Source: a virus. From it: a stretch of 49,848 nt of DNA. The DNA lies in IMG/VR virus record IMGVR_UViG_3300030104_001410, positions 1 to 49,848 of that record; one strand, given 5' to 3'. Both the position numbers and the translations under genes were made by a program. Shown here piece by piece: positions 44,677-47,141 of this stretch (its first letter is position 1; each line of letters starts with the position of its first letter). The notes beneath the pieces were generated by a model, which was not told the DNA's origin, searched no databases, and saw only the letters and a program-made list of their open reading frames with translations.

Positions 44677-44706
44677 ACTTTAGCCCGATTTTGCCCAAAA
44701 AGTCAA
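44677..44706 (-). promoter_or_regulatory. Candidate early promoter C
   Basis: Minus strand TTGACT (44706-44701), 18 nt, TAAAGT (44682-44677), with the shared block 44695-44720. Start near 44670, about 45 nt before the gene at 44624. On the plus strand the same block ends TAAGACTATAAT, so direction is not certain. Confidence 0.5.
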
Positions 44707-44814
44707 GAGGTGTAAGACTATAATAGCCCCCTCAACATTTCGCACGTGCGATAAGGCTGAAAGATTTAAGTATTAGACTATAATTTTTCTAAAAAGTTCT
44801 GGGATTTATTAAGA

Positions 44815-44869
44815 TTTCACATAAAGTTCACAAAGATTTCACATAATATTTGCAAAGATTTAACAAAAG
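44815..44869. repeat. 11-bp phased repeats, cluster 1 (putative iterons)
   Basis: Five consecutive 11-bp units: TTTCACATAAA, GTTCACAAAGA, TTTCACATAAT, ATTTGCAAAGA, TTTAACAAAAG. Alternate units are closest, giving a 22-bp period. One turn of the helix per unit puts each site on the same DNA face, as for initiator or regulator arrays. Confidence 0.6.
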
Positions 44870-44933
44870 GTACAGTAATTTTAGTATGTACCTTTATAAT
44901 TTATGTACCTTTTAAGACTATTATGTGTACCTT
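44866..44933. repeat. TGTACCTT boxes with inverted repeat
   Basis: AAAGGTACA (44866-44874) is a perfect inverse of TGTACCTTT (44887-44895). TGTACCTT recurs at 44904-44911 and 44926-44933. Four copies in 68 bp of very A+T-rich DNA look like binding sites next to an unwinding region. Confidence 0.55.
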
Positions 44934-45040
44934 CTACACTCTTTGCCCTCAACTTTACGCACACAGGGGGCGTTCTAGTATAGTAATAAGTAGATTTATA
45001 TATCATCTTTGTGAGTAGAAAACAGACAAACTAAACAAGG

Positions 45041-45195
45041 CTTTTTAAAAAACCCTATCGGGTTGTGTGCTTTGTATGCTTTGCTAGGGGCAAAGGTAAT
45101 AAAAGCTTTAAAAAAGCTTTACCAAAGTGAGGGGTGCTAAAGCACACTTTAAAGATTTTGCTACACACAAGGTTTCGCAGCCCCCGATGGGGGGT
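45041..45195 (-). ncRNA. Candidate small structured RNA ending in a minus-strand terminator
   Basis: From right to left on the minus strand: CCCCC-ATC-GGGGG type hairpin (45181-45193), GTGTGCTTT/AAAGCACAC (45065-45073/45139-45147) enclosing an AAGCTTT hairpin, then AACCC-GATA-GGGTT (45064-45051) followed by six T. The last is a plausible Rho-independent terminator on the minus strand. No coding frame fits. No clear promoter of its own. Confidence 0.4.
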
Positions 45196-45224
45196 TAACA
45201 AGAAGAGGAATGTTTTTTAAAAAA

Positions 45225-45279
45225 TTTCACATGTTTGTCACATAAATGTCACAAAGATGTTACAAAATAGACACAAAAA
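45225..45279. repeat. 11-bp phased repeats, cluster 2 (putative iterons)
   Basis: Five units: TTTCACATGTT, TGTCACATAAA, TGTCACAAAGA, TGTTACAAAAT, AGACACAAAAA, with the same TCACA core as cluster 1, 410 bp away. TGTGA/TCACA is also the CRP half-site, but here all are in one direction. The array overlaps a possible ATG at 45246, which argues that the gene starts further down. Confidence 0.6.
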
Positions 45280-45317
45280 TAATTGAACTAATTATGAACT
45301 TATTTTGTCTAACTAAC

Positions 45318-45524
45318 ATGAACGAAATACATATTCATTATTCAGACCAAATTCTAGGCGAGTCTTTTGCCCTAGTAGCCGAGTCTGTAACAGAAGCAAA
45401 AGACTTAATTAAAATCCATTTTGAAGAATTTGGGCAAAAGCCATTTTTGGTTAAAGCCCCAAAAATTTCAATGGAAAAATCTATCAGCAATTATGCTATC
45501 CAATTATTTAGAGGTGTTAAATAA
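45318..45524 (+). CDS. Small hypothetical protein of the rightward early operon
   Basis: 68 residues from the ATG at 45318 (MNEIHIHYSDQILGESFALV start), then VTEAKDLIKIHFEEFG. No ribosome site is visible. Strand-helix-strand layout; the C-terminus is basic. A longer form from 45246 would be coded by the repeat array and is rejected. Function unknown; control of replication or early switching fits its position. Confidence 0.6.
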   Translation: MNEIHIHYSDQILGESFALVAESVTEAKDLIKIHFEEFGQKPFLVKAPKISMEKSISNYAIQLFRGVK

Positions 45525-45850
45525 TGGCTTTTAAACCAACAAAAGAATGGCTTGAGGGTGCCAAATTAAAACCTGTTTCTTATAATACTGTATTATTCAT
45601 CTGTGGTATGATGAGTGAAGAACTTCCTAAGTCTTCAAAATACAAGTATTTTAATCAACTTAGGGCAACCATTCTAAGTGTTTCCAAAGGTACAATCTGT
45701 AAACACACAGGGAAAAAAGGTACTTTCTCGCAACGCATGGCTCATGATTGGATTGAGAAAAATAAATCCTTGCCTTTTGCAAAAAGAAAATTGCCTAAGT
45801 TGATTGCCGATAAACACGCAAGATTTCAGGAGACCCACGCAGAGGAATAA
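45524..45850 (+). CDS. Small basic protein of the rightward early operon
   Basis: 108 residues, basic, overlapping the previous stop by one base (TAATG), with GAGGTG about 10 nt before the ATG. Helical with CKHTGKKGTFSQRMAHDWIE in the middle. A DNA-binding role is possible by charge and by being beside the putative origin. Followed by a strong terminator. Confidence 0.65.
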   Translation: MAFKPTKEWLEGAKLKPVSYNTVLFICGMMSEELPKSSKYKYFNQLRATILSVSKGTICKHTGKKGTFSQRMAHDWIEKNKSLPFAKRKLPKLIADKHARFQETHAEE

Positions 45851-45865
45851 TCCTTAAATCTTCTA

Positions 45866-45894
45866 AGCCCTCTGAGAAATCAGGGGGCTTTTTT
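45866..45894 (+). terminator. Rho-independent terminator of the rightward early operon
   Basis: AGCCCTCTGA (45866-45875), GAAA tetraloop, TCAGGGGGCT (45880-45889; one U.G pair), then a run of T to 45894. Isolates the 45.3-45.85-kb operon from the structured region to its right. Confidence 0.92.
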
Positions 45895-45899
45895 GTCAG

Positions 45900-46621
45900 C
45901 CCAGCTAAGGACTTCTAAAGCAACAAGTTGCTAAGAAGTACTAAGCTCCCCTGAAACCCACCCAGAAGGCAAGTGAGGACCTGCTAACGCAGACTTTAAT
46001 TGCCTGATGAAGCTACGCTAACGCTAACTTAATTTGGCTGGACTTCTTGCTGCCAAGAAGCAACCACAACCTTTTTGAAAAAAGCTTGAGCAAAAACTGG
46101 GTGAAGGGGATAGATAAACTTATTCAAGTCCTGATAGCTCTACCAAGTCTGAGGAGTTTATAGGCATACATCAAAGCCCATCAAAACTCTTAAACTTTGT
46201 AAACTTGATAAGGACTTGTTTAGTTTGTCTGTTTAGGGATGACAAAGAGAAGATTTAAGTAGACATGGGTGGACTCTTTTAGCACTTCAAAGTTATTAAA
46301 ATGTGAGTAGGAACTTTGAAGTGCTAAAATGGGGTGGTCACGTTTGTTTTAGAACTTGTTAGTTTGTATAGTGTTGGGAAGGACTCCCAAGTTCTAGGGG
46401 GAGGCAGGAGACCACCCCAGTCCACCCATGTATCTATAGCATATTCATACAAAATCTAGCAATCTCTCCGTCAACCAGATTTGCCGGTAAGTAGTTTACA
46501 TCCACTCTAAAAAGCTAGAATAATTTAATCAGGTTGGGTAGTTTTTGCAGGGGTTGTTTTTATGTTGGATAGAACTACTTAGGTGGTCCAATAGTAGCTA
46601 TATGCACCCGGTGGGAGCACT
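45900..46621 (-). ncRNA. Candidate giant structured noncoding RNA (~720 nt)
   Basis: No coding frame fits, yet helices cover the region: an 18-bp perfect hairpin (46277-46294/46312-46329); a 13-bp helix (46263-46275/46419-46431) next to a 9-bp GGGGTGGTC/GACCACCCC (46331-46339/46410-46418), together a three-way junction; AGAACTTG/CAAGTTCT; CAAGTCCT/AGGACTTG extended by GATAAACT/AGTTTGTC; CTTCTTG-CTGC-CAAGAAG; AGGCAA/TTGCCT around CTGC-TAAC-GCAG; TAAGTAGTT/AACTACTTA crossing TCTAGC/GCTAGA like a pseudoknot. A perfect minus-strand promoter sits at its edge, giving a start near 46621. Strand is inferred from that promoter; one U.G pair fits plus-strand RNA better. Size and ornateness recall GOLLD/ROOL RNAs, not shown. 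Confidence 0.6.
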
Positions 46622-46627
46622 AAAGTT

Positions 46628-46656
46628 ATTATAGCTATCAGATTAAGTTTTGTCAA
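46628..46656 (-). promoter_or_regulatory. Perfect consensus sigma70 promoter, leftward
   Basis: Minus strand TTGACA (46656-46651), 17 nt, TATAAT (46633-46628): full consensus at both boxes. Predicted start A at about 46621, followed by a TGC-CCC hairpin and no ribosome site or gene. Confidence 0.88.
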
Positions 46657-46677
46657 GACCCTACTATAAACTTGACA
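46651..46677. repeat. Inverted repeat joining the two divergent -35 boxes
   Basis: TGTCAAG (46651-46657) and CTTGACA (46671-46677) are perfect inverses spaced by 13 nt. They contain both -35 boxes, so they may simply reflect the promoters or may also be an operator controlling both. Confidence 0.6.
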
Positions 46678-46700
46678 AATTTATTTCCGAAGTATATACT
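46672..46700 (+). promoter_or_regulatory. sigma70-type promoter for the late block
   Basis: TTGACA (46672-46677), 17 nt, TATACT (46695-46700). The predicted start at about 46707 is the A of the terminase small subunit ATG, so the mRNA would be leaderless. This is the only good promoter seen for the rightward late block. Confidence 0.82.
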
Positions 46701-46706
46701 AAGACA

Positions 46707-47141
46707 ATGGCAATACTACCCAGTACTACAAGTAAAAGTGAAAGAAAGCTTACTGAGAAGCAGCAATCCTTTTTGGAACAGCTAGTTGAAACGCAAGGCG
46801 ATGCTAAAAAGGCTGCTGAGTTAGCAGGGTATAGTAGTCATTATCATCATGTGGTAAAAAGCCTCAAGAATGAAATACTTGAACTAACTCAGGAAATCTT
46901 AGCAAACTCTGCACCTAAAGCAGCTTTTAAGCTTGTTGAGATTATGGAGTCTAAAAGACCTATAGTACAAGCTAACAATAAACTATCAGCAGCTCAAACC
47001 TTGCTCGACAGGGTTGGTGTTAGTAAAATAGACAAATTAGACGTTAATCATAACTTAAACAGTGGTATCTTTGTCATGCCTGATAAAGCCCCACTGGATT
47101 TACCAGAGGAAGATTATGAAGATATTTCTGACAGAGATTGA
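46707..47141 (+). CDS. terS: Terminase small subunit (probable)
   Basis: 144 residues from the ATG at 46707; a longer frame from 46650 runs through the promoter and is rejected. N-terminal helix-turn-helix (LTEKQQSFLEQLVETQGDAK, then KAAELAGYSSH) and a central helical part (AAFKLVEIMESKRPIVQANN, then AAQTLLDRVGV) match small terminases, which recognise DNA and load the motor. No ribosome site precedes the start. First gene of the late block. Confident in family resemblance; the other candidate is the gene at 48686. Confidence 0.8.
   Translation: MAILPSTTSKSERKLTEKQQSFLEQLVETQGDAKKAAELAGYSSHYHHVVKSLKNEILELTQEILANSAPKAAFKLVEIMESKRPIVQANNKLSAAQTLLDRVGVSKIDKLDVNHNLNSGIFVMPDKAPLDLPEEDYEDISDRD

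Follow-up and report, generated by a model that had tools for sequence, protein, structure and literature searches.

Which kind of element occupies the 856 non-coding bases (45851-46706) that separate gene B, ending at 45850, from the terminase small subunit gene (terS) in this phage genome, and what could it regulate? The window, i.e., the whole stretch of 49,848 nucleotides that was analyzed, is a complete circular-map genome with a terminal overlap of 98 bp. Judged by the terminase, its nearest relatives are the pelagiphages HTVC115P, HTVC103P and HTVC104P, followed by HTVC033P and the HMO-2011 group. The isolates closest to the window that carry the locus infect SAR11, which is among the commonest marine bacteria, and SAR11 bacteria are probably also the host of this phage. 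The structural genes run rightward from terS (46707) and the replication genes run leftward. An earlier note had described the gap as a gene-free region with a candidate large ornate RNA and its own promoter, and had named a conserved protein frame across it as an observation that would speak against this view. No open reading frame of at least 60 amino acids was present between 45850 and terS, neither across the region nor within it. The start at 46650 in the list of open reading frames is a TTG upstream of terS.

The promoter of the proposed RNA, P_L, was indeed found to be an exact match to the full consensus, pointing into the gap on the minus strand. It is aligned and conserved in the relatives, with a score of 11-12 in all 26 families scanned. 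The fold energy of the minus strand was -246.3 kcal/mol, compared with -184.5 kcal/mol for dinucleotide-shuffled controls (z about -10.0, 20 shuffles). The plus strand of the gap gave a z of about -8.8 against such controls, and the stretch 46101-46625 folded by itself a z of -7.2 (100 shuffles). Judging from P_L, a large folded non-coding RNA would be made beside the packaging gene. In our judgement there is about an even chance that the gap encodes the structured 5' part, about one half, of a P_L transcript that runs leftward and controls the two small genes A and B by antisense pairing. The features of the locus are listed in Table 1.

Table 1. Features of the terS-proximal locus in the window (helices are given with both arms in the first column).
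Feature	Position	Strand	Basis
terS, constant neighbour	46707-47141	+	PHROG terminase small subunit, E 4e-7
Divergent promoter for terS, TTGACA-17-TATACT	46672-46700	+	11/12 consensus
P_L promoter, TTGACA-17-TATAAT, facing into the RNA, transcription start about 46621	46628-46656	-	12/12 consensus
5'-terminal hairpin GUGC-CCC/GGG-GCAU, RNA start	46602-46620	-	100% paired in 10 window-clade sequences
5' stem 46573-46581/46488-46496 (9 bp) plus extension	46488-46581	-	two doubly compensated pairs
Conserved core domain	46397-46499	-	core HMM match in 77/77 terS relatives with enough upstream sequence
13-bp closing helix 46263-46275/46419-46431, core-body junction	46263-46431	-	perfect; 96% paired in clade
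10-bp helix 46330-46339/46410-46419, stacked on the 13-bp helix	46330-46419	-	inverted repeat, pairing in clade
18-bp perfect hairpin 46277-46294/46312-46329	46277-46329	-	four doubly compensated base pairs
3' motif AAGUUUACAAA...	46187-46211	-	corresponds to CUAGUUUACAA... in relatives
Structured, fast-evolving 3' body in the window clade	45891-46262	-	aligned in clade; hairpins exchanged for other hairpins
Intrinsic terminator of the A-B cassette	45865-45890	+	same A-B-terminator layout in relatives, leftward there
Gene B, 108 aa, flipped versus most relatives	45524-45850	+	class-B gene B family profile, E 4e-4
Gene A, 68 aa, flipped versus most relatives	45318-45524	+	weak family profile match, E 0.006; same position and order
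Candidate terminator AACCCGATAGGGTT-TTTT, could end the P_L transcript antisense to A-B	45047-45064	-	sequence

Homologues of the locus were found in large number. A terS search of IMG/VR yielded 80 loci, and the core profile matched 77 of them; the contigs of the other three end 110-253 nt upstream of terS and are too short. In all 77 relatives that are long enough, the core and P_L are divergent from terS. A scan with a DNA pattern yielded 74 stretches, mostly new loci. P_L, the RNA start (CUUUAGUG-CCCCCC-GGG) and the core could be aligned across 45 distinct sequences. The 57-nt centre of the core (46395-46451) contains the conserved UCUCCUGCC, which could pair with Shine-Dalgarno sequences; the core might also serve RNA stability or make contact with a protein or the ribosome. 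Neither the region nor the core had a relevant BLAST match among annotated phages. The isolate HTVC115P has a diverged core (profile E 6.6e-7), and core-like sequence was seen, by eye only, in HTVC103P. The HTVC115P leader (L084/L085) also carries, before the core, an intrinsic-terminator-like hairpin (CCCTGCCTAAACCGGTGGGGTTTTTTT) about 170 nt past the terS start on the minus strand.

The core of the class-B relatives contains a helix, P2 (ACCAUGC/GUAUGGU). Across 41 distinct sequences 94% of its cells were paired, versus at most 46% when the helix was slid, and 10 further pair types occurred (0 of 500 shuffles). Read on the minus strand, the variation comprised about 59 G-U cells versus one A-C cell; on the plus strand this wobble variation would be mismatches, which supports a minus-strand RNA. 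The window's class is devoid of P2, and the core bases concerned are paired with remote segments instead, forming the 13-bp and 10-bp helices. In L010, L023, L026, L028 and L043 these bases have other, equally complementary distant partners, i.e., the 13-bp helix is swapped for different but complementary long helices. Covariation among homologues, the absence of which the earlier note had regarded as critical, was seen as compensated pairs and as the P2 wobble pattern, but stricter tree-based tests, one of the core and one of a class-B leader alignment, gave no significant pair, and therefore the covariation claim is moderate. The helix-scan control permutes columns and proves little. Pair counts gave no support for a core helix P3 (CTAT/ATAG) or for a P4 pseudoknot, and the idea that the core has the same distal partner everywhere was rejected, as only 10 of 55 families possess it. 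Taken together, the homologues, the compensatory changes and the strand-specific wobble pairs of the core support a real, selected and structured RNA locus with its own promoter.

Every inverted repeat that had been reported was present in the window, including 46125-46135/46208-46218 and 46350-46363/46383-46396 (86%); the helix stacked on the 13-bp helix has 10 bp, where 9 bp had been given. In the window clade (10 sequences) 92% of the cells were paired, versus at most 49% after sliding, and 30 cells were doubly changed, versus 12.3 in shuffled alignments. The compensated pairs of the 18-bp hairpin occur in L005, L006, L011 and L145 and possibly represent one ancestral event. The 5'-terminal hairpin changes its sequence across 46 distinct 5' ends, with 46 G-U versus 8 A-C cells on the minus strand, a count for which the loop was chosen so as to maximise pairing. 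The wobble count of the window clade (23 G-U versus 60 A-C, many in weak helices) is ambiguous with respect to the strand. The 3' motif lies 100-625 nt past the core in most of the 55 distinct families. The crossing pairs proposed as pseudoknots were not supported, the sole candidate that involves the core (46410-46421/46577-46588) being absent in most close relatives.

The relatives showed what follows the core. In most of those with enough sequence, the first leftward gene past the RNA is gene A (56-75 aa); each of the five whole contigs in which it was detected has one copy of it. Downstream of it are gene B (88-141 aa) and an intrinsic terminator. The arm between the core and gene A, 300-650 nt long, is an inverted copy of the region of A, B and the terminator, and the mirror is centred about 90 nt before gene A. 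The match of the arm with A-B of its own genome ranked first of all families in 29 of 32 cases. The scores were typically 400-700, versus about 100-200 with other families, and the same mirror test elsewhere in the window gave at most 98. In most folds two-thirds or more of the A-B bases were paired with the arm. The arms diverge by 10-20% at aligned positions and occur in many independent contigs, and thus an assembly artefact is unlikely.

The antisense sequence of the leader covers the Shine-Dalgarno region, the start codon and the first codons of gene A. The pairing with this translation start had a mean z of -4.9, and 33 of 42 values were below -3. It was also family-specific, with -21.2 versus -13.2 kcal/mol, while the lowest of 5000 permutations was -16.2 kcal/mol. 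P_L is located about 730-1070 nt before gene A and the terminator about 470-590 nt past the gene A start. A minus-strand terminator directly after B was found by scan in 19 of 26 families and by eye in most of the rest, and new leftward promoters are present beyond it. From P_L to the terminator, the locus of the relatives forms a self-contained unit about 1.1-1.6 kb long. The order in the proposed transcript would be P_L, 5' hairpin, core, inverted A-B arm, A-B and terminator. Folding back of this RNA would leave the start sites and the bodies of A and B base-paired and poorly translated, and A-B might be released by RNA processing, by melting, or by bypass transcription that starts nearer to A.

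The earlier note had compared the RNA with GOLLD and ROOL and suggested one of the known large families or a new class. A comparison of both strands with Rfam, at the gathering score as well as at a permissive E<=10, gave nothing beyond chance hairpin matches, and an identity with GOLLD, ROOL, OLE or HEARO is not supported. According to the literature GOLLD is often located near tRNAs, and the 49.8-kb genome contains no tRNA, which is supportive only. An extensive fold conserved between members, as in ROOL, is not seen: only the 5' hairpin and the core are shared between families, and the body differs. The window RNA resembles GOLLD and ROOL in size and setting only, as a large structured phage non-coding RNA (PMC12286853). 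A stand-alone RNA of this kind, which would form an RNA particle or bind a host factor or the ribosome and to which A-B would be incidental, could explain the strong fold, the perfect promoter and the RNA core. Abundant non-coding RNAs of similar size do exist in phages; the RNA of about 800 nt of the lytic phage ICP1 likewise stems from an ORF-less gap of about 1 kb (PMC7567579). It is nevertheless rather unlikely, as the body is unconserved between families and mostly a copy of A-B, and both an Rfam match and a tRNA island are missing. A new class is plausible, but not as an RNA machine built on a single invariant ornate fold: a small conserved core with a body that is mostly a copy of the downstream genes points to an antisense leader.

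The locus could also act as DNA, i.e., as a cos or pac packaging site or as a replication origin, with the core as protein-binding DNA. In cos phages the cos site has a fixed place just upstream of terS, and the position directly upstream of terS is fixed here too. Repeated GTTAAC/GTTTAC motifs, the strongly conserved core sequence and the large palindromes would also be in line with such an element. However, the wobble pattern of P2 is strand-specific, the promoter is directed into the region, and the mirror arm covers two genes and stops at their terminator, which makes a DNA element clearly unlikely.

One property of the arms does not fit antisense pairing within the P_L transcript. On the minus-strand RNA the mismatches between the arms comprised 702 A-C versus 230 G-U, the A-C excess was seen at each of the three codon positions in gene A, and in 24 of 26 families the plus strand had the more stable fold. 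Selection for a minus-strand hairpin would predict the opposite. The transition asymmetry between arm and genes was strong in L136, L097, L106, L082, L119, L115 and L045 (about 45-58 A-C versus 5-11 G-U on the minus RNA), and the transitions were balanced in L116, L036, L058 and L090. The spacing of the interruptions between the arms was only mildly more regular than random. The asymmetry could stem from an RNA of the plus strand, from a mutation bias between the strands, or from selection that breaks up the duplex.

The asymmetry, which does not look like minus-RNA pairing, would also be in line with an arm that is a silent inverted cassette and diversifies A-B by gene conversion, with pairing as a by-product. 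Genes A and B vary strongly from family to family, and the arms are homogenised within each genome. Yet the mirror extends beyond the coding sequence to the start sites, the upstream region and the terminator, and it is missing in the window clade, so that we regard this explanation as improbable. Alternatively, the functional hairpin might be a plus-strand RNA, antisense to A-B and continuing into the mirror arm. The 702 versus 230 mismatches would be G-U-compatible on that strand, which is also the more stable one, but a conserved plus-strand promoter or terminator was not found around the hairpin, and the genes, P_L, the terminator and P2 all indicate the minus strand; we therefore consider this version quite improbable. 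A put-like leader, which would let RNA polymerase pass over the terminators of the leftward operon, would agree with a structured 5' leader right behind a strong promoter and with the terminator-like hairpin of HTVC115P, but it is very improbable, as the unit has a terminator of its own behind B, with new promoters beyond it.

Antisense control of A-B by the P_L transcript would be realized differently in the window. The A-B-terminator cassette is flipped (45318-45890, plus strand), and a mirror arm was not found in the window clade. As no minus-strand terminator was predicted between P_L and 45064, a P_L transcript would be expected to read on through B and A as a direct antisense RNA. It would retain the 5' hairpin, the core and the long helices. 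The candidate terminator at 45047-45064 is similar in L012 and L021 and lacks the T run in L005 and L138. A perfect 20-bp inverted repeat, AAACAGACAAACTAAACAAG, flanks the flipped cassette (45020-45039 on the plus and 46215-46234 on the minus strand). It is kept in L005, L006, L012 and L021 and has one mismatch in L138, and it is a possible footprint of the inversion. L010-type relatives have a TerS 92% identical to that of the window, a leftward A-B and a retained mirror arm, so that the window clade seems to have acquired the flip recently.

The AlphaFold2 model of gene A is a compact beta-beta-alpha-beta-alpha domain (pLDDT 92), and gene B is predicted to be helical. Neither gene had a PADLOC match or a confident Pfam match. 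For the gene A model, weak fold matches were obtained with two small inhibitors from phages, T7 Gp2 and phi29-type p56 (E about 0.3-0.4); these and the PDB fold matches of B were too weak for use. A type I toxin-antitoxin system is not supported, as A is a compact domain and B is helical according to the predictions, and no small hydrophobic toxin was recognised.

In hok-type mRNAs the start region is sequestered by base pairing to a different segment of the transcript. The proposed fold-back is similar in that the start region would be locked by intramolecular pairing, but unlike hok, no hydrophobic toxin was recognised, a full-length inverted copy pairs, and no sok-like RNA was found. Gene leaders are the presumed targets of the P4 CI, P1 C4 and PLE IIR RNAs (PMC7567579). 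They are likewise non-coding RNAs of phages or satellites that are complementary to leader or start regions of their own genes, and inverted repeats accompany the PLE IIR transcript (PMC7567579), as they do the locus described here. Complementarity to the start regions of the own genes was found in the relatives; in the window clade, which has no mirror arm, it is given by the opposite orientation only. The P_L RNA might keep A-B silent or delayed like these RNAs, with a much larger complement. Unlike them, it contains a conserved core domain, a cis mirror of two whole genes that spans several hundred nucleotides lies beside terS, and a role in lysogeny is not evident. The staphylococcal cabRNA is likewise a structured phage RNA at the terminase locus, but it arises within the terS-terL genes (PMC10686824), whereas the RNA here is transcribed away from terS. 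A limited literature search found no account of the locus in HMO-2011-type or pelagiphage genomes.

We tentatively propose, at a probability somewhat below even, that the locus is a new regulatory element: a self-complementary transcript of about 1.4 kb with a conserved core beside terS, the leader of which contains a full-length inverted copy of its two genes and co-evolves with them in each genome. The lineage of the window would have replaced the mirror by flipping the genes, with the same promoter still making the antisense RNA. If true, the combination of a core present in every terS relative examined with a leader mirroring entire genes would represent an unusual way of controlling genes, and the locus would be a ready test case for the survival of long self-complementary RNAs in bacteria. 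The RNA family is defined by anchors and alignments and can be searched for in marine metatranscriptomes.

A second stretch of about 640 nt that is almost free of open reading frames is located at 44679-45317. Its hairpins differ in sequence between clade members and keep their pairing (AACCC-GGGTT versus GTGC-GCAC).
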